Below are positions 30,710 through 37,706 of a DNA stretch of 64,000 nt, one piece after another. This DNA comes from Ornithinicoccus hortensis. GTDB lineage: Bacteria > Actinomycetota > Actinomycetes > Actinomycetales > Dermatophilaceae. Below the pieces are notes generated by a model. The model was not told the DNA's origin and did no database searches. It saw nothing but the letters and a program-made list of their open reading frames with translations. The stretch covers positions 496,001 through 560,000 of the forward strand of contig NZ_VFOP01000001.1 of NCBI RefSeq assembly GCF_006716185.1, read 5' to 3'. Numbering within the stretch: the first letter of the stretch is position 1; every line of letters begins with the position of its first letter. A program made the translations under genes and the position numbers.

Positions 30710-32218
30710 ATGAGACACAGCAGGGTGCTGGCCGGGGGCCTGTTCGCCGTCCTGATCGGGGCGTTCGCGCTCAGCCCGGGGTCCGCCGACCCGGTCGATC
30801 CCGCGGAGTCCGCACCGCAGGCCTCCCGGAGCGAGGTCCGGTGGGACGCGGGGCTGGCCGGCACGGCCCCGTGCCCGGAGGGCACCACCCGGGCGAGCAG
30901 CCGACTGACCGAGCGGTTCAACACCGGCATCCCGCAGAACCAGTTCAACAACGGCTTCTACCGCGCCCAGGGTGGCCTGCACGGCGTGTCCGCCCGCTCC
31001 GACGTCGACGGCAACGACCCGACCGACTGGATGTTCACCGACTGGGCGACCGCGCCGGTCGGCGCCCAGACGATGCTGGCCTTCGCCACCAAGGGCAACG
31101 CCGCCAGCACCCTGGCCCGCGCCAACGTCAACTCGGTGCAGAAGCAGGTCCCGATGGGCTCGTCCTGGCGCGGCCTGGTCTACGACATCACCGCCGCCAC
31201 GGACGACGAGGACGGCCGACTCGGACCCTGGTTCGAGCACAAACGGGCCTCAGGGAAGAGCCAGACCTGGTGGCTGGAGAACATCCAGATCTACACCTGC
31301 AGCAAGAACAACACCACCCGCTACAGCGGGTCGGACCGCTACGCCACCTCGGCGGCGATCTCGGGCCTGCTCAAGGCCGACGTCGACGTCGCCTACCTGG
31401 CCAGCGGCACCTCGTTCCCCGACGCGCTGACCGGCGCGGCGCTCGCCGCCACGACCGACAGCCCGGTGCTGCTGGTCAAGAAGACCGGCATCCCGGGCAG
31501 CGTCCAGGCCGAGCTGACCCGGTTGAACCCGGACCGCATCGTGGTGCTGGGCGGCAAGTCCGCGGTCAACGACGCGGTGCTGAAGTCGGCCGAGCGGTTC
31601 GCCCGCAGCGGCGAGGTCACCCGGTTGTCCGGGGCCGACCGCTACCAGACCTCGGCGGCCATCGCCGCGCTCTACCCGGACGGCCTGGACCGGGTCTACA
31701 TCGCGACCGGGCGGGACTACCCGGACGCGTTGGCCGGCGGTGCGCTGGCCGGCCGGTTGGACGTCCCGGTGCTCTACACCAGTCCGGACGGCATCCCTGC
31801 CGTGGTCGCCGAGCAGCTCGAGCGGATCAACCCCGGCAAGATCGTCGTGCTCGGCGGCACCAGCGCGGTGCCGGAGGACCAGATCGGACAGCTGCGCGGC
31901 TACACCCGCAGCGGCACCGTCGACCGGATCGCCGGCTCCGACCGCTACGCCACCTCGGCGCTGATCGCGCGCGGGTTCCCGACCGGGCTGCCCCGGGTGT
32001 TCGTGGCCACCGGCCAGGACTTCCCGGACGCGCTCTCCGGTGCCGCCGTCGCGGGCAGCCAGGGGGTGCCGGTCCTCCTCACCCGCTACGCGGAGCTGCC
32101 CAGCACGGTCCGCAACCAGATCTCCAAGGCCGACGCCAACGCGGGGGTGGTCATCGGCGGGCAGGGCTCGGTCAGCCCGCTGGTCCGTGACCAGCTCGGC
32201 GCCGTCGTCCACAACTGA
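30710..32218 (+). CDS. Secreted protein with C-terminal cell-wall-binding repeats 2 (CWBR2)
   Basis: 502 residues from ATG 30710; a longer in-frame ORF runs upstream but lacks coding character. A signal peptide is clear (MRHSRVLAGGLFAVLIGAFALSPG). Residues 45-200 are an unassigned extracellular domain (RFNTGIPQNQFNNGFYRAQGG; SSWRGLVYDITAATDDEDG). Three tandem CWBR2 units follow, each beginning with a SGSDRYATSAAI-type sequence and containing FPDALTGAALA and a VVLGG-S-AV strand. CWBR2 triplets usually attach proteins non-covalently to the Gram-positive wall, so this should be a wall-associated protein of unknown activity. It shares the CWBR2 module with the peptidase-like protein at 35417-37627. 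It precedes the Mau-like cassette by 40 bp and may be co-transcribed with it. Confidence 0.88.
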   Translation: MRHSRVLAGGLFAVLIGAFALSPGSADPVDPAESAPQASRSEVRWDAGLAGTAPCPEGTTRASSRLTERFNTGIPQNQFNNGFYRAQGGLHGVSARSDVDGNDPTDWMFTDWATAPVGAQTMLAFATKGNAASTLARANVNSVQKQVPMGSSWRGLVYDITAATDDEDGRLGPWFEHKRASGKSQTWWLENIQIYTCSKNNTTRYSGSDRYATSAAISGLLKADVDVAYLASGTSFPDALTGAALAATTDSPVLLVKKTGIPGSVQAELTRLNPDRIVVLGGKSAVNDAVLKSAERFARSGEVTRLSGADRYQTSAAIAALYPDGLDRVYIATGRDYPDALAGGALAGRLDVPVLYTSPDGIPAVVAEQLERINPGKIVVLGGTSAVPEDQIGQLRGYTRSGTVDRIAGSDRYATSALIARGFPTGLPRVFVATGQDFPDALSGAAVAGSQGVPVLLTRYAELPSTVRNQISKADANAGVVIGGQGSVSPLVRDQLGAVVHN

Positions 32219-32258: not shown

Positions 32259-32942
32259 ATGCGCAAGAACCGCCGACTCCTCAACGGTGACCTGCTGACA
32301 CTGCAGGTCCCGGACGCCGCGGCACTCCCGGGCTCCACCGCGATCAGCGTGCTGTCGCTGGACGACCACGAGCTGGAGGTCAACTCCGGCACCGCCGCCG
32401 ACCTGGAGTTCTACCTCTCCATCTCCGGCAGCCAGCTCACCGACGAGGTCACCCTGCGGGACGGCAGCGCGCTGCGCTACGGCCGGCACGGCGCCGACCC
32501 GGCCTCCGGGTTCGTCTTCGCGGTCGCCGTGGGCGAGCACCACGTCTACGGCTTCACCGTGCCGACCATGGACATCGAGACGCTCACCAGCTACCTGGCC
32601 GGCGTCACCTTCCGGCCGCACGAGGACGGACCGACGCTTGAGCTGTCCGGGTCGGTGACGTGGTCGCAGTACCGCACGCACACCGTCGCCCAGGTGGTGG
32701 ACCTGAGCGAGGGCCAGGGCTTCCTGCTCGACGTCCGGCGCACCCGCACCGGTGACATCGCCCGCGACGGGGCCGGCATGGAGGTGCCCGGCGGCTGGCT
32801 CACCCGATCCTCGACGGAGGAACGGCACGCGTATGCCGTGCTCGAGGCCACCGACTTCGTCAGCTACGGCATCCCCGGCAACCAGGGCGACGTCGACCTG
32901 GTGGCCACGGTCCTGTCCGGTGTCACCACGGAGCTGGGATGA
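32259..32942 (+). CDS. Unknown 227-residue protein heading a Mau-like cassette
   Basis: Starts at ATG 32259 (MRKNRRLLNGDLLTLQVPDA). No signal peptide or membrane span is seen. The sequence is rich in beta-type stretches (LEFYLSISGSQLTDEVTLRDG; VYGFTVPTMDIETLTSYLAG; TLELSGSVTWSQYRTHTVAQV; QGFLLDVRRTRTGD). I recognise no family. It ends 7 bp before the MauE-like gene, so it is part of that operon. In mau and aau operons the gene just before mauE encodes the large dehydrogenase subunit MauB. This protein is too short and shows no visible propeller repeats, so position is the only similarity. It could be a cytoplasmic partner or regulator of the exported Cys/Trp-rich protein. Confidence 0.72.
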   Translation: MRKNRRLLNGDLLTLQVPDAAALPGSTAISVLSLDDHELEVNSGTAADLEFYLSISGSQLTDEVTLRDGSALRYGRHGADPASGFVFAVAVGEHHVYGFTVPTMDIETLTSYLAGVTFRPHEDGPTLELSGSVTWSQYRTHTVAQVVDLSEGQGFLLDVRRTRTGDIARDGAGMEVPGGWLTRSSTEERHAYAVLEATDFVSYGIPGNQGDVDLVATVLSGVTTELG

Positions 32943-32949
32943 GCCCGCG

Positions 32950-33525
32950 ATGAGCGTGCTGTCCCCCGCCCTGCTGGGTGCCGTGGCGCTGGTCCTGCTG
33001 GCCTCCGCCGCCGGCCACCTGCGCCACCCGGTGGCCCTGCGGTCCGGTCTGCTGGTGCACGACGTCCTCCCGGCCGCGCTGCACCGACCGGTGTCGGTCC
33101 TGCTGCCGGTGGCCGAGCTGACGCTCGGGGCCGTGGCGCTGTGGGCGATCGCCGGGCCCGGTGACCCGGTGCTGCTCACCCGGCTCGGCGGCGCCGGCGC
33201 CGCCCTGCTGTTCGCCGGCTTCACGGCCTACCTCCTGGGGGTGCTGCGGACCCGGCCCGAGCCCGGTGTGCCCTGCGCCTGCGGGGTCGGGGAGGCCTCG
33301 GTCGGGCCGGTGAGCGTGGCGCGGGCCGGGCTGCTCGCCGGCTTCGCCGCCGTCGCCGCGCTCACCGCGGGAGGGTGGACGTTCACCACCCGGCCGACGC
33401 CCGAGGTCGTCGTCACGGTCGCGGCCGCGCTCACCCTCGCCGTGGCCACCGCGCTGCTGCCGGCCGCCCGCGAGGTGCCGGCCGACCTGACCCTCACCGA
33501 CCTGGCGGCGGGTGGTGCCCGGTGA
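32950..33525 (+). CDS. MauE-like integral membrane protein
   Basis: 191 residues from ATG 32950. It has about five hydrophobic segments, matching the DoxX/MauE-type fold (ALLGAVALVLLASAAGHLRHP; LLPVAELTLGAVALWAIAG; LLFAGFTAYLLGVLRTRP), and a cysteine pair in PGVPCACGVGEASVGPVSVARA, the position of the conserved cysteine motif of MauE. In methylamine dehydrogenase operons MauE and MauD are needed to form or protect the many disulfides of the small subunit MauA. The gene is coupled by a GTGA overlap to the MauD-like gene, reproducing the mauE-mauD-mauA order. A role in oxidative folding or maturation of the exported protein encoded at 34097 is inferred. Confidence 0.8.
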   Translation: MSVLSPALLGAVALVLLASAAGHLRHPVALRSGLLVHDVLPAALHRPVSVLLPVAELTLGAVALWAIAGPGDPVLLTRLGGAGAALLFAGFTAYLLGVLRTRPEPGVPCACGVGEASVGPVSVARAGLLAGFAAVAALTAGGWTFTTRPTPEVVVTVAAALTLAVATALLPAAREVPADLTLTDLAAGGAR

Positions 33526-34100
33526 GCTTCCTGACCTCCGCCGTGATCCTGGCCTGGGTCGCCATCGTGCTGCTCGCCCTCGGCTTCGCCGGGATGCTCC
33601 GCCAGGTCATGCTGCTCAGCAACCGTCGGCTCGGCGGGGACGGGCAACCCACGGGCGCCCCGCCCGGCGGGGGCACCGCCCGCAGCACCCGGGACCTCGT
33701 CGGCTTCCGGCTGCCGCCGCACGGGGAGCTCGCCGCGCTGCCGGACCCGCAGGCGCACCGCACGGTGGTGGCATTCGTGTCCCCCGGCTGCCCGTCCTGC
33801 ACCCAGACGCTCCAGGGGCTCGCCGCGGCGCCGGACGTCGCCGCCGGCTCGGTCGCGGTCGTGGCCGTGTCCACCGGCAGCTGCGAGCCGGCCGAGGCGG
33901 CCTTGGCCGGCACCGGCCGGTGCATCCCGCAGGGCCGCCCGCTGCTGGACCAGCTGCACGTGCCGGTGACCCCCTACCTGGTCGCGCTCGATGCCAGCGG
34001 CACGATCGTGGCCGCCCTCCTGCCGCAGGAGGACACCGACCTGGCCGGCTGGCTCCGGCATACCCGAGGATCCATGACGCTCACCGAGGAGTCACCATGA
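33522..34100 (+). CDS. MauD-like membrane-anchored thioredoxin-fold protein
   Basis: 192 residues from GTG 33522 (VSFLTSAVILAWVAIVLLALGFAG). One N-terminal membrane anchor is followed by a linker and a thioredoxin-like domain with VVAFVSPGCPSCTQTLQGL, where C-P-S-C is the redox motif, and VTPYLVALDASGTIVAAL, which carries the cis-Pro region. This architecture (single TM, TlpA/ResA-like domain facing outside, CPxC motif) is that of MauD, required for correct disulfides in methylamine dehydrogenase small subunit. The end overlaps the ATG of the Cys/Trp-rich exported protein by 4 bp, so enzyme and probable substrate are made together. It probably acts at the outer face of the membrane. Confidence 0.85.
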   Translation: MSFLTSAVILAWVAIVLLALGFAGMLRQVMLLSNRRLGGDGQPTGAPPGGGTARSTRDLVGFRLPPHGELAALPDPQAHRTVVAFVSPGCPSCTQTLQGLAAAPDVAAGSVAVVAVSTGSCEPAEAALAGTGRCIPQGRPLLDQLHVPVTPYLVALDASGTIVAALLPQEDTDLAGWLRHTRGSMTLTEESP

Positions 34101-34630
34101 GCAACACCCCGGGCAGCCGCCCGACGATCCGGTTCGAGGACCTGCCGACGGCCGACGAGGCGCGGCTGCGCAAGCGGCTGCGGCCCCGTCCGACGCGCCG
34201 CACCTTCCTCGGCTCCGTGCTGGGGGCCGGGGCCGCCGTCGGGCTGAGCTCCCTGGTGCTGGTGAACCGGGCGACCGACTCCGCGCAGGCCGCGTACTGG
34301 CAGGACTGGACCAACACCGCGACCGGGCCGTGCGCCACCTATGCGCGGGACCACACCGAGCGCGGCATCCAGTGCGGCCCGTCCCCGATGTGCACCACCA
34401 AGTCCTGCTGCTGGAAGTACCGCAACGGCGCCGGCAACCTGGTCGGCTGGCACAAGAGCGCCCCCGGCTCGACCGGCTACTACACGCACCGGCCGGACGA
34501 CTGCTGGAACAGCACCTACGACTCCTGGCACTGGAACTTCAGCGACGGCTACACCTACCGCTGCTCCGACGGGTGGACCTGCAGCGCCGGCGGCTCCTGC
34601 AGCAAGTCCATCTGCCCCTGGCCGATGTAA
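34097..34630 (+). CDS. Tat-exported Cys/Trp-rich protein, MauA-like (methylamine dehydrogenase small-subunit-like)
   Basis: 177 residues from ATG 34097 (GGAG upstream, ATGA overlap). A twin-arginine signal is clear: RPRPTRRTFLG then a hydrophobic stretch, with a likely cleavage near SAQA-AYW (residue 66). The mature part of about 111 residues holds ten Cys (79, 93, 99, 104, 105, 136, 156, 162, 168, 173) and nine Trp (68, 71, 106, 118, 137, 144, 146, 160, 175). MauA has a similar total length, a Tat-type leader, an N-terminal FRF-D-like start and a Cys-rich core with a CC pair. Its TTQ cofactor is built from two Trp. The MauE/MauD-like neighbours support disulfide-dependent maturation. TTQ formation and amine oxidation are not shown: no heavy chain or MauG is in the window. 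A structural or toxin-like Cys-rich protein is the main alternative. Confidence 0.75.
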   Translation: MSNTPGSRPTIRFEDLPTADEARLRKRLRPRPTRRTFLGSVLGAGAAVGLSSLVLVNRATDSAQAAYWQDWTNTATGPCATYARDHTERGIQCGPSPMCTTKSCCWKYRNGAGNLVGWHKSAPGSTGYYTHRPDDCWNSTYDSWHWNFSDGYTYRCSDGWTCSAGGSCSKSICPWPM

Positions 34631-34633
34631 CGC

Positions 34634-34819
34634 GTGGTCGAGCACACCGTCGGGCCGGCGCGCCGTTGGGCGGCCGACCCCCTCGTCCTGCTGGGCGCGA
34701 CCGGGGTGGCGACCATCGCCCTGGTCCTCGTCCTCCTCACCGGGGGCGACCTGCCCTGGCAACCCCCGGCGATGCTGGGCGTGGTCGCGGCCGGGTTGGC
34801 CCTGTCCGGCTCCACCTGA
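34634..34819 (+). CDS. Short membrane protein or N-terminal piece of a split membrane protein
   Basis: 61 residues from GTG 34634, 3 bp after the Cys/Trp-rich gene. It has two hydrophobic segments (ADPLVLLGATGVATIALVLVLL and PAMLGVVAAGLALSG) and stops at TGA 34817-34819. The reading frame after this TGA continues in phase into the next membrane protein without any other stop, and the next start codon has no ribosome-binding site. The two pieces therefore look like one gene of about 255 codons broken by a single nonsense codon, or a pair with stop-codon readthrough or re-initiation. No strong ribosome-binding site precedes this GTG either. Function unknown; by position, part of the Mau-like cassette. 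Confidence 0.5.
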   Translation: MVEHTVGPARRWAADPLVLLGATGVATIALVLVLLTGGDLPWQPPAMLGVVAAGLALSGST

Positions 34820-34843
34820 GGCCTGAACAGCGCCTGGTCGCTG

Positions 34844-35401
34844 GTGGCCTCGGTCCGGGGCCGTTCCGTCCAACTCCGCCTGTGGGTGGCCTTCGCCCTC
34901 GGCTGCACCGTCGGTGGCGCCTTCACCGGGGTCGTCCTCGGGGTGTTCTCCGGCCTGCTCTCACCGCTGACCGCGGGCCTGCGCCTCGGGCTGTTCGTGC
35001 TGGCCGCCCTCGCGCTGGCCGTGCTCGACCTGGTCCAGCCGGTGCTGCGGCTGCCGCAGCGCAAGGAGCTCATCCCGCAGGAGGTCTTCCACCGCGGCAT
35101 GGGGCGCGGCGGGTTCCGGTTCGGCCTGGAATACGGCTGCGGCTTCCGCACCCTGGTGCCCTCGGCCGCCTCCTACATCGCCGCCGTCTTCCTGCTCTGC
35201 GCGGTGCTCCCGCTGCCGTATGCCGTCCTGCTCGGCGCCGTCTTCGGGCTGAGCCGGAGCCTGGCGGTGCTGCAGTACGTCCTCCTCGGCGCCCCGGGCT
35301 GGCAGGCCTTCCTAGCCCGGCACAGTCGCCTGCTGGAGCGGGCCGGGTCGCTGGTGGCCCTGGCCGCCCTGGTGGCCTCGGCCGTCCTGCTGCTGGCCTG
35401 A
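34844..35401 (+). CDS. Multi-pass membrane protein, last gene of the Mau-like cassette (possible C-terminal piece)
   Basis: 185 residues if read from GTG 34844 (MASVRGRSVQLRLWVAFALG). About five hydrophobic segments, including LWVAFALGCTVGGAFTGVVLGVF, GLRLGLFVLAALALAVLDLV, YIAAVFLLCAVLPLPYAVLLG and LVALAALVASAVLLLA. No family was recognised. The frame is open back through GLNSAWSLVASVRG to the TGA at 34817-34819, in phase with the 61-residue ORF before it. The absence of a Shine-Dalgarno before 34844 favours one original gene. It ends 15 bp before the end of the convergent peptidase-like gene. As a polytopic membrane protein co-encoded with an exported redox-type protein it could be an electron-transfer or maturation partner, but nothing in the sequence proves this. 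Confidence 0.6.
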   Translation: MASVRGRSVQLRLWVAFALGCTVGGAFTGVVLGVFSGLLSPLTAGLRLGLFVLAALALAVLDLVQPVLRLPQRKELIPQEVFHRGMGRGGFRFGLEYGCGFRTLVPSAASYIAAVFLLCAVLPLPYAVLLGAVFGLSRSLAVLQYVLLGAPGWQAFLARHSRLLERAGSLVALAALVASAVLLLA

Positions 35402-35416: not shown

Positions 35417-37627
35417 TCAGCCGGTGCCGGCGAGCTGGTCGAGCACCTTCTGGGAGACCGCGGACTTGCCGCCGACCACGACGATCGCACCCGGCTTCAG
35501 GTCGTTGAGCACGGCGCGGGTGGCATCGGGCAGGCTGTCGGTGCGGGTGAGCAGCATCGGGCCCTCGGTGAAGCCGGCCCGGGCCGACCCGGACAGCGCG
35601 TCCGGATAGTCCCGCCCGGTGGAGACGTAGACCACGTCCAGCCCCGTCGGGTAGTAGGCGGCCAGCTCCGCCGCGGTCTCGTAGCGGTCCGACCCATAGA
35701 CCCGCTGCAGGTTCTTGGTGACGGTCAGGTTCTTCAGCTGGTTGGCGACCGGGTCACTGACCGCCTCCGCGCCACCGAGCACGACCACCCGCTGCGGCCT
35801 GATCGCCTGCATGGCGCTGACCGTCTCGCTGGGGACGCTGTCCTGCCGGGTGAGCAGCACGGGGCCGTTGTTGAAGGCCGCGCGGGCCGACCCACCCATC
35901 GCGTCGGGGTAGGTGTCACCGGTCGCGACGTAGACCACCGGCACGTTGCTGCCGAACTTGCGGGCCAGCGCGCCGGCCGTGGCGTAGCGGTTCTCCCCCG
36001 AGATCCGGGTGACGGAGCCGGCCGTGTAGCCCTTGAGCTGGTTGACCACGCTGCCGGAGATGGCCTCGGAGCCGCCGACGACCACGATCGAGCTGGGCTT
36101 GAGTCTGGTCAGCTCGGTCTTGGTCTCCTTCGGCAGGGCGGTCTTCGGGGTCAGCAGCACCGGGTTGTTGGTGGCCCCGGCGCGGGCCGACGCCGCGAGG
36201 GCGTCCGGGAAGTCCTTGCCGGTGGTCACGTAGGCCACCCTGCCCGTCGGGTAGGTCGCGGACAGCTTGGCGGCGGTCGCGTAGCGATTCGCCCCCGCCA
36301 CCCGGCTCACCGGGGTCTTCGGCGGGCTCGCGGGCGGGTCGTCCGGGATCCCGACCTGGAGCATCTTGGCCCAGGTCGCGTTGTCGAGGACGCCGGTCAC
36401 CGGGACCGAGTAGTCACCCTGGTACTCCAGCAGCGCCGCGAGCGTGATCGGCCCGAAGCTCCCGTCGACGTCCCCGCCGGTGAAGCCGAGGTGTTGCTGG
36501 GCGATCTTGACGTAGTTGTTCACCGCGTTGGGCAGCACGACCGGGTAGGGCGAGTACGGCGGGTTGGGCAGGTTGGTCGGGCACGGGGAGGTGCGGCGCG
36601 CGGTGTAGCGCGGGGCATACTGCCCGGCGTAGACCCGGCAGGTGCCGTGGTCGATCGTGGTGACGGGGGTGCCGGTCCACCACGAGGTGCGCTTCATCGC
36701 CCCGTCCCAGGTGAAGCTGATGTGCAGGTGGTCGGTGTGCGGGCTCGGCCCGGTGTAGTCCTTCCAGGAGCCCGGGTCGTACATGTACCAGGACTTGCGG
36801 TTCCAGATGATCGACATGACGCCGAACCGGCGGGCCATCTCCCCGTTGTTGGCGCTGAGCCACTGTGCCACGGAGTCCCCGATGGCCTTGTCCGCCGGGT
36901 CGTAGACGTTCATCGCCCAGTCGAAGGCGCGGCCCTCGTAGTGCTGGCTGTTGTCGCCCGCCAGGCAGGTGCGGCTGGTCGAGTAGTAGGGGCGGTTGTA
37001 GTGGCTGCTCACCAGCGCCGCGAAGGCGAGCATGCCCGGCTTGTTGTTGGGGTCGCAGGCGTAGGTGTACTGCCACGGCGACGCGGCGTCCAGGGTGCCG
37101 GGCAGCGATTTGGTCGGCGGGGCGGGGACCGCGGTGGTGTCGGCGTCGGTGCCGAACTGGGCGAGGTAGCCGGTGTCGGCCGACATCAACTCCTCGGGGG
37201 TGGACGGCGTGATCTCCTCGGCGGGCCGCTCCACCAGCCACTCGGCCGGGATGTCGGCCGGGTCCGGCGGGGAGCCGACCCAGGCCAGCGGTTCGTCCAC
37301 CGGGAGGACCGGCCCGGCGGACGCACCGTCCTCCGGGCCTACGACGAACGGGTCGGCCGGCCGCTGCACGGCCTCGAGGTAGTGCGTGCCCTCGGCGAAG
37401 GTGTCGCCGTAGTCCCCCAGGGACTGGTGGTCGTGGCCGTGGTCGTCACCGGCCAGGTCCGCGGGGTCCAGCGGATCGGCCAGCGCGCCCGGTGCGGCGC
37501 TCACGAGGGAGGCGACCAGGGCGCTGGTCACCGCGGTCACCAGGGTCCGTCGAGACGTCACGGACGGGGAGGGGTGGGGGTGCGCCAGCGACTTCACAGC
37601 AGGGGCCTTTCGGACCGCCGGATCCAT
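35417..37627 (-). CDS. Secreted M15-like peptidase with PG-binding domain and three CWBR2 repeats
   Basis: About 736 residues from ATG 37627; a TTG at 37654 would add nine. Signal peptide: SRRTLVTAVTSALVASLVSAAPGALA. Residues 70-190 are an acidic, Pro-rich linker. Around 200-330 a peptidase M15/LAS-type zinc site is visible: HYEGRAFDWAMN (H...D) and SPHTDHLHISF (second HxH). Next is a peptidoglycan-binding domain (IAQQHLGFTGGDVDGSFGPITLAAL), then three CWBR2 units (SRVAGANRYATAAKLS; TRISGENRYATAGALA; RVYGSDRYETAAELA). It should be a wall-bound hydrolase or carboxypeptidase that trims peptidoglycan stem peptides. It is transcribed alone from an unusually AT-rich promoter region upstream. Confidence 0.88.
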   Translation of the reverse strand: MDPAVRKAPAVKSLAHPHPSPSVTSRRTLVTAVTSALVASLVSAAPGALADPLDPADLAGDDHGHDHQSLGDYGDTFAEGTHYLEAVQRPADPFVVGPEDGASAGPVLPVDEPLAWVGSPPDPADIPAEWLVERPAEEITPSTPEELMSADTGYLAQFGTDADTTAVPAPPTKSLPGTLDAASPWQYTYACDPNNKPGMLAFAALVSSHYNRPYYSTSRTCLAGDNSQHYEGRAFDWAMNVYDPADKAIGDSVAQWLSANNGEMARRFGVMSIIWNRKSWYMYDPGSWKDYTGPSPHTDHLHISFTWDGAMKRTSWWTGTPVTTIDHGTCRVYAGQYAPRYTARRTSPCPTNLPNPPYSPYPVVLPNAVNNYVKIAQQHLGFTGGDVDGSFGPITLAALLEYQGDYSVPVTGVLDNATWAKMLQVGIPDDPPASPPKTPVSRVAGANRYATAAKLSATYPTGRVAYVTTGKDFPDALAASARAGATNNPVLLTPKTALPKETKTELTRLKPSSIVVVGGSEAISGSVVNQLKGYTAGSVTRISGENRYATAGALARKFGSNVPVVYVATGDTYPDAMGGSARAAFNNGPVLLTRQDSVPSETVSAMQAIRPQRVVVLGGAEAVSDPVANQLKNLTVTKNLQRVYGSDRYETAAELAAYYPTGLDVVYVSTGRDYPDALSGSARAGFTEGPMLLTRTDSLPDATRAVLNDLKPGAIVVVGGKSAVSQKVLDQLAGTG

Positions 37628-37706
37628 GGGAAGGGACGTGGCGGCAGTGGTCAATGGTGTTGGTGGGGTTCTTGTGCAGCGGCCCCGACACTACCGACCA
37701 ACACCT

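Follow-up and report, generated by a model that had tools for sequence, protein, structure and literature searches.

The DNA analysed here is a 64,000-nucleotide stretch of the Ornithinicoccus hortensis genome (Actinomycetota, Dermatophilaceae; assembly GCF_006716185.1, contig NZ_VFOP01000001.1, positions 496,001 to 560,000 of the forward strand), hereafter called the window, and it contains a locus that resembles part of the mau clusters for methylamine dehydrogenase (MADH) biogenesis. The genes encode a cell wall binding protein, a soluble protein named P227, homologs of MauE and MauD, an exported Cys/Trp-rich protein with a leader of the twin-arginine translocation (Tat) type (hereafter the Tat protein) and a membrane protein whose frame is interrupted by a UGA codon (Table 1). 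We conclude that the locus is very likely a Mau-type maturation operon for the exported Cys-rich protein, and that its last gene would encode a MauF-homologous selenoprotein, MauF(Sec), with selenocysteine (Sec) at the UGA.

Table 1. Features of the locus, in window coordinates
Feature	Position	Strand	Evidence
Secreted protein with cell wall binding domain 2 (CWB2) and a specific N-terminal domain	30710..32218	+	Pfam PF04122, 3 stretches
P227, soluble, Cys-free	32259..32942	+	without Pfam or NCBIfam match
MauE homolog, invariant CxCG	32950..33525	+	PF07291, 54.3 bits
MauD-like membrane-anchored thioredoxin, CPSC and a second Cys pair	33522..34100	+	BLASTP to Paracoccus MauD, E 1e-9
Cys/Trp-rich exported protein, Tat-type leader, presumed substrate	34097..34630	+	twin-Arg leader; 10 invariant Cys
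MauF(Sec), membrane protein, 255 residues, proposed Sec at residue 62	34634..35401	+	frame conserved across the UGA; MauF homology
In-frame UGA, proposed Sec codon	34817..34819	+	conserved in relatives
SECIS-like hairpin, GGUCC loop (34852-34856, 32 nt after the UGA) on a 7-bp stem	34845..34863	+	covariation; fit to the bSECIS model

Layout of the locus

The original prediction, made from the letters of the window, had described a cassette of MauE-like, MauD-like and Tat-signal genes in the order E-D-A, and the 4-bp overlaps that join these three genes are real. P227 stops 7 nt before the MauE start, without overlap, and the CWB2 gene stops 40 nt ahead of P227. Relatives of the Tat protein occur in 24 of 186 genomes of the family, and the order P227, MauD-like protein, Tat protein and membrane gene is kept in all 20 long loci that were fetched; the cassette is therefore not a chance arrangement. 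MauE was matched in 19 of these 20 loci. P227, for which the absence of a known family holds, was found in 20/20 and gave a weak match in 6 of 14 class-level loci. The CWB2 N-terminal domain lies upstream of the operon in 20/20 long family loci (it was not found at the Propioniciclava locus L080), and the upstream CWB2 gene is thus part of the conserved locus.

The assignment of MauE is secure against its Pfam cut-off (27 bits), and its residues C109 and C111 are present in 24/24 sequences. For the MauD-like protein, the predicted CPSC motif and the similarity to Paracoccus MauD stand, whereas the NCBIfam model TIGR02661 scores 26.7 bits against a cut-off of 188.6; all four of its Cys are kept in 25/25 sequences. 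A second MauE-family protein is encoded elsewhere in the same genome (L001, G000:C1:2339457-2339849) and scores 99.2 bits with PF07291, above the operon's copy.

The reading frame continues across a conserved UGA

The membrane protein that had been predicted to follow the cassette does exist, but the open frame first assigned to it, 34844-35401, covers only the C-terminal portion of a longer frame. This longer frame starts at a GTG and is interrupted by an in-frame UGA, which had been overlooked. The UGA occupies the same place in 25/25 family-level copies (the window and 24 others in 23 genomes), within the motif LSGST*G[LVI]NSAW (the asterisk marks the UGA) and with the protein conserved on both sides. 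The same UGA is found in the Propioniciclava copy (L080), which belongs to another order, Propionibacteriales. At class level, it is present in 15/15 copies read, where the motif becomes SGS[TV]U[ST]xNS, and each of the 16 matches beyond the window's genome at E <1e-16 carries one TGA. A nonsense mutation is ruled out, as the identical UGA appears in every relative read across that stretch.

Synonymous sites next to the UGA are frozen. In a 25-row codon alignment, a single codon is used in 4/6 four- or sixfold degenerate invariant columns of codons 64-76, compared with 0/38 comparable columns elsewhere (codon 63 excluded). Conserved protein together with frozen synonymous sites means that the stretch after the UGA is coding and also carries a signal at the nucleotide level. 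A pattern search for a form with Cys in place of the UGA did not find one, with only 32 stretches matching either pattern. Judged by its sequence, the last gene almost certainly encodes a membrane selenoprotein; split by its own stop codon, the gene has probably been cut short or overlooked in automatic annotation.

The interrupted gene encodes a probable MauF homolog

When the alignment of 26 interrupted proteins was compared with that of eight MauF proteins, the two matched over 177 columns with E 9.9e-5 and a score of 38.1, the best of 100 column shuffles reaching 31.4. Adding class-level members, for a set of 21 sequences, strengthened the MauF match to E 9.1e-11 and a score of 77.4, with 23.8 as the best shuffled score, and the phylum-level copies L136 and L138 matched a Paracoccus-type MauF model directly (E 8e-16 and 1e-18). 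The selenocysteine aligns with Cys79, the sole Cys that is invariant across the eight MauF proteins, so that the Cys found in homologs at the Sec position is the MauF Cys79. Sec thus takes the place of the Cys in the S-x-C-G element of MauF: SPCG in MauF corresponds to WSPUG in L136 and L138 and to SGSTUG in the window. On these alignments, we are nearly certain that the last gene product is a homolog of MauF.

Neither Pfam nor NCBIfam matched the 25 interrupted proteins convincingly (lowest E 0.003, single members), and Pfam had no match for Paracoccus MauF either. A structure of MauF(Sec) was predicted confidently, with a mean predicted local distance difference test score (pLDDT) of 85.7 and a predicted template modelling score of 0.86. 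A Foldseek search of the PDB with this model returned 179 matches, none at E <=0.001, and among the 50 matches listed the membrane electron carrier CcdA (5vkv) had the top probability (0.35, E 1.2). The MauF(Sec) family is without a second invariant Cys. To our knowledge, the role of MauF is not understood at the biochemical level.

A SECIS-like hairpin downstream of the UGA

The published model of the bacterial selenocysteine insertion sequence (bSECIS) asks for a loop of 3-9 nt, a stem of 4-16 bp, a spacing of 16-37 nt, a G within the first two loop positions and a minimum free energy <= -7.5 kcal/mol (PMC13188914). In the family studied here, a hairpin with a loop of the GGUC type (GGUCC in the window) lies 32 nt 3′ of the UGA. 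The best model hairpin of the window has -10.7 kcal/mol, close to the -11.6 kcal/mol at the UGA of the same genome's formate dehydrogenase (FdhA), and the model fits 14/15 class-level copies (all but L132) and 1/3 more distant copies.

Covariation was scored over 14 of the 26 family-level and 15 class-level copies, leaving out L136, L138, L139 and G1095. In these 29 hairpins (26 distinct), 94.5% of the cells are paired and 34 cells are changed on both sides. The covariation score is 0.634, compared with 0.241 +/- 0.036 in 500 shuffles, none of which is as high, and with at most 0.203 when the hairpin position is slid; the register of this alignment was set by hand, at 32 nt, or 29 nt for two copies, which biases it towards the hairpin. 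The two copies concerned, L129 (minus strand) and L133, carry the hairpin one codon nearer to the UGA.

Several observations weigh against the hairpin. The window stretch taken by itself folds like its shuffles (z -0.54), its minimum-energy fold gives the stem other pairing partners, and 9.5% of shuffles yield an equally good model hairpin. In close relatives alone, covariation is weak (9/500 shuffles reach the score). The energy limit is missed by L132 (-6.5 kcal/mol), L138 (-5.8) and L139 (-6.9), and in L125 the best model hairpin sits in a different register. Because the window alone and the close relatives alone are weak, the case for a selenocysteine insertion element is decided by the distant copies.

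Two other pairings were rejected as insertion elements. One, between GAGGCC at the UGA and GGCCUC, is unpaired at one position in 11/22 distinct rows and shows no covariation; the other, a CAGCGC/GCGCUG hairpin, has a loop that starts only 14 nt after the UGA. This second hairpin (window 34828-34843), which lies between the UGA and the candidate element, is nearly invariant in family-level copies, most of which have exactly this pair of arms.

Selenocysteine machinery accompanies the operon

The genome of the window encodes a tRNA-Sec with anticodon UCA beside selB, whose product scores 241.1 bits, slightly below the cut-off of 242.25. FdhA carries a UGA of its own, and the genes for tRNA-Sec, SelB and FdhA lie close together. 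Across the 186 family genomes, tRNA-Sec accompanies the operon in 23/24 cases and is found in 94/162 of the others (p 1e-4). The association is sharper among the 73 family genomes without FdhA, where tRNA-Sec is present in 10/10 with the operon and 5/63 without it (p 5e-9). At class level, all 13 genomes with MauF(Sec) have tRNA-Sec, as against 15/62 control genomes (p 3e-7); the controls were chosen by their handle numbers from genomes for which the class-level search listed no match, and were not matched for kinship. The tRNA-Sec gene lies 2.3-7.5 kb from the MauF(Sec) gene in 6/13 class genomes. In one FdhA-less genome (G126), the genes for AIRS (SelD-like), tRNA-Sec, SelA and SelB directly precede the CWB2 gene and, with it, the operon. 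The threshold for tRNA-Sec, 60 bits, was our choice: family scores drop from 62.4 to 55.6 around it, and the class-level genome G502 scores 59.7.

This association has its weak points as well. Related genomes are not independent, so that the co-occurrence p-values are indicative only. In one operon genome, the 570-contig assembly G128, no tRNA-Sec scores over 60 bits, and in G611, which holds a relative with the UGA, none exceeds 44 bits. Conversely, tRNA-Sec occurs without the operon in five FdhA-less genomes (G137, G140, G144, G157 and G159), which may hold other selenoproteins.

The exported protein

The Tat protein has, as predicted, 10 Cys and 9 Trp within 111 mature residues (the cut was placed by eye), and all 10 Cys and 5 of the Trp are invariant in 25 sequences. 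Pfam and NCBIfam returned weak Tat-signal models only, plus a MelC1 match below the cut-off. Its AlphaFold2 model is poor (mean pLDDT 35), and of two sequence searches of the PDB, one gave two chance matches and the other none. Likewise, a contig scan with the single Tat protein gave 597 stretches, none of them confirmed, and a tblastn search of plasmids with it had no result.

Is this protein a MauA, that is, the small subunit that carries the tryptophan tryptophylquinone (TTQ) cofactor? The original prediction had offered a divergent amine dehydrogenase as one of two readings and proposed a profile search against the MauA families. The mature domain shows no similarity there: two comparisons with light chains of MADH and aromatic amine dehydrogenase (AADH) scored 16.4, where the 95th percentile of shuffles was 18.8, and 14.1, where it was 18.2, and MauA membership was rejected since these scores lie within the shuffled controls. 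The leader regions of the two proteins do align, as Tat leaders may generally. No homolog of the cytochrome c peroxidase (CCP)/MauG family (PF03150) was found at E 0.001 in the genome, the control having matched in 2/14 genomes; the heavy-chain model (PF06433) had no match there either, though it matched none of the control genomes. The dehydrogenase reading is thus not supported, and the other one, in which a new exported Cys/Trp-rich protein makes use of Mau-type maturation, gains strength from the MauF homolog, which joins MauE and MauD.

A conserved Trp pair, on which the original prediction had also hinged, exists, but in the form W-x-W. The motif W-x-W...C-x-D is present in 20/20 diverse relatives (seven family-level copies and 13 of 15 class-level copies, two near-duplicates being left out), and shuffled proteins contain it in 119/4000 trials. 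Placing this W-x-W on the Trp pair of MADH would take an alignment.

The exported protein is likely located at the cell wall, because two loci (L122:7370-8290, minus strand; L125:6041-7021, plus strand) encode the Cys-rich domain as a fusion with two PG_binding_1 stretches and the CWB2 gene stands upstream throughout the long loci.

In a separate observation, a locus on a Thermomicrobium roseum plasmid (L092) contains a partial stretch resembling the MADH light chain (37% identity); directly after it comes a 596-residue protein annotated as a member of the MauE/DoxX family.

Distribution

Within the genus, 22 of 31 genomes have a relative of the Tat protein, and the other two family genomes with one belong to other genera. 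Such loci were seen in Ornithinimicrobium, Serinicoccus, Janibacter anophelis and, in another order, Propioniciclava sinopodophylli. The order-level profile search matched 3/297 genomes, namely the window's own, a genus mate and a fragment with five stops. At class level, 17/394 genomes matched; setting aside the window's genome and three with UGA-free matches of 32-43 residues, 13 remain, with 16 matches in all and a best match per genome of E 1e-21 to 1e-30. Flanks were fetched for 12 of the 13. Three of these genomes, G987 (L129), G962 (L127, L128) and G879 (L132, L133), have two MauF(Sec) genes each, with different partner genes. In 14 class-level loci, MauE was matched in 10 and the MauD-like protein in 13, on three occasions with an E value above 0.01; the profile recognised the Tat protein in 10 loci, and reading the frame revealed it in the remaining four.

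At phylum level, 7/396 genomes matched, the window's own among them. L136 and L138 read WSPUGES and L139 (G611) reads DSGUGHS; as to the rest, the match in G758 ends at a contig end before the Sec position, that in G725 is without the Sec region, and that in G694 covers 59 residues. A tblastn search of plasmids with a distant MauF(Sec) gave one record, from Nonomuraea gerenzanensis, which carries no annotation at that place.

Near the operon of the window, a second CWB2 protein, which also has a peptidoglycan-binding domain, is encoded convergently at 35417-37654 (minus strand); a relative of it adjoins the operon in several, not all, fetched loci.

A proposed maturation pathway

What might the operon do? 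It is likely that it matures the neighbouring exported protein. The operon would then be one of the selenium-dependent Mau-type systems by which Actinomycetes mature Cys-rich exported proteins, probably ones attached to the cell wall. SelB would read the UGA as selenocysteine, and the Sec of MauF(Sec), the CxCG of MauE and the CPSC of the MauD-like protein may together form a thiol/selenol relay in the membrane, which would form or isomerise the disulfides of the exported protein; once matured, this protein would act in or at the cell wall. We regard the relay as drawn as somewhat probable; its order, its reductant and the part played by P227 are suppositions. Weighing against this proposal, the exported protein is presumed to be the substrate from gene order only. 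For MADH itself, PMC7794033 gives the involvement of MauE in forming the disulfides of the small subunit as a speculation and describes the role of MauD as unclear. More tentatively, and with considerable doubt, the pathway could across Actinomycetes also build a protein-derived redox centre, around W-x-W...C-x-D, in exported cell-wall-associated proteins. MauF(Sec) would then, with similar doubt, be a selenoprotein that acts in the biogenesis of another protein's active site.

Alternative readings

Two alternatives concern the UGA. The gene could encode two proteins, a 61-residue peptide with one membrane helix, terminated by the UGA, and another protein with its start at GTG 34844, with the hairpin coupling or regulating their translation. 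The presence of this GTG in the window and the strong conservation of the hairpin speak for it. Yet the amino acids of residues 63-70, which separate the UGA from the GTG, are conserved (with invariant G, N, S, A, W and L), the restart GTG is CTC in L045, CTG in L047 and TTG in L046 and L080, the homology to MauF spans the UGA and puts Sec on the invariant Cys, and the link to tRNA-Sec would be left unexplained; two proteins are therefore very unlikely. UGA is in general a leaky stop codon, so readthrough by a near-cognate tRNA with some other amino acid might also be considered, but it is made extremely improbable by the co-occurrence and linkage of tRNA-Sec, the hairpin that follows the bSECIS model and the Sec/Cys pair with MauF.

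Two others concern the exported protein. It might belong to a divergent TTQ-type amine dehydrogenase, as a MauA homolog beyond recognition by sequence; the joint presence of MauE, MauD-like and MauF homologs, the long Tat-type leader resembling that of MauA and the invariant W-x-W speak for this, but the mature-domain scores within the shuffles, the missing CCP/MauG homolog and the unmatched heavy chain (with the caveat on its controls given above) leave it quite unlikely. Alternatively, the locus could be a cluster for a ribosomally synthesised and post-translationally modified peptide (RiPP), with the exported protein as precursor or product, as was proposed with decRiPPter for Streptomyces clusters in which MauE, in one case with MauD, stands near a precursor with at least eight Cys (PMC7794033, seen in part). 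Against it, the mature exported domain is about 110 residues long, its Cys are invariant, and in L122 and L125 it is fused to PG_binding_1, and we consider a RiPP unlikely. Those clusters share with ours MauE, once MauD, beside a Cys-rich protein, but the passages that describe them mention neither MauF nor selenocysteine.

Relation to known systems

A Mau-type operon with a proposed selenoprotein MauF has its closest counterpart in the mau cluster. MauF of Paracoccus denitrificans (WP_011750949.1) is homologous over about 180 columns, has its redox residue at the same place and is likewise encoded with MauE and MauD; it differs in having Cys for Sec and in the MADH large subunit alongside. 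In the Paracoccus cluster, the MauF gene precedes MauB, so that the order is F-B-E-D-A, as opposed to E-D-A-F here. The exported protein shares with MauA (PF02975) and the AADH small subunit a Tat-type leader, a Cys-rich mature domain and a gene position after MauE and MauD, and is unlike them in its mature-domain profile and in the lack of a MauG homolog found in the genome. CcdA/DsbD-type membrane electron carriers resemble MauF(Sec) in the proposed mode of action, but the Foldseek match is not significant and the second invariant Cys is absent from our family.

Membrane or transport-related selenoproteins as such are not new, as the YeeE/YedE family (GUxSG), SaoP and TsoB illustrate (PMC13188914). 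In the accessible part of that source, Table 1, which covers 119 families or subfamilies of selenoproteins, lists neither a MauF relative nor a family in which SGS[TV]U or SPUG occurs beside Mau genes, and our literature search found no title on a selenoprotein in a Mau-type context. As far as the literature was searched, and with sources seen in part, the proposed form of Mau-type maturation, with a selenoprotein MauF, is thus new.

The data point to a family of membrane selenoproteins that sits inside Mau-type operons of several actinomycete families, next to exported proteins with W-x-W...C-x-D, which form a family of their own that Pfam does not match. The pairing of Sec with the invariant Cys of MauF leads to the prediction that this Cys is the acting residue of MauF. 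For the bacteria that carry the operon, MauF(Sec) would explain why ten genomes without a selenocysteine-containing formate dehydrogenase have retained tRNA-Sec.

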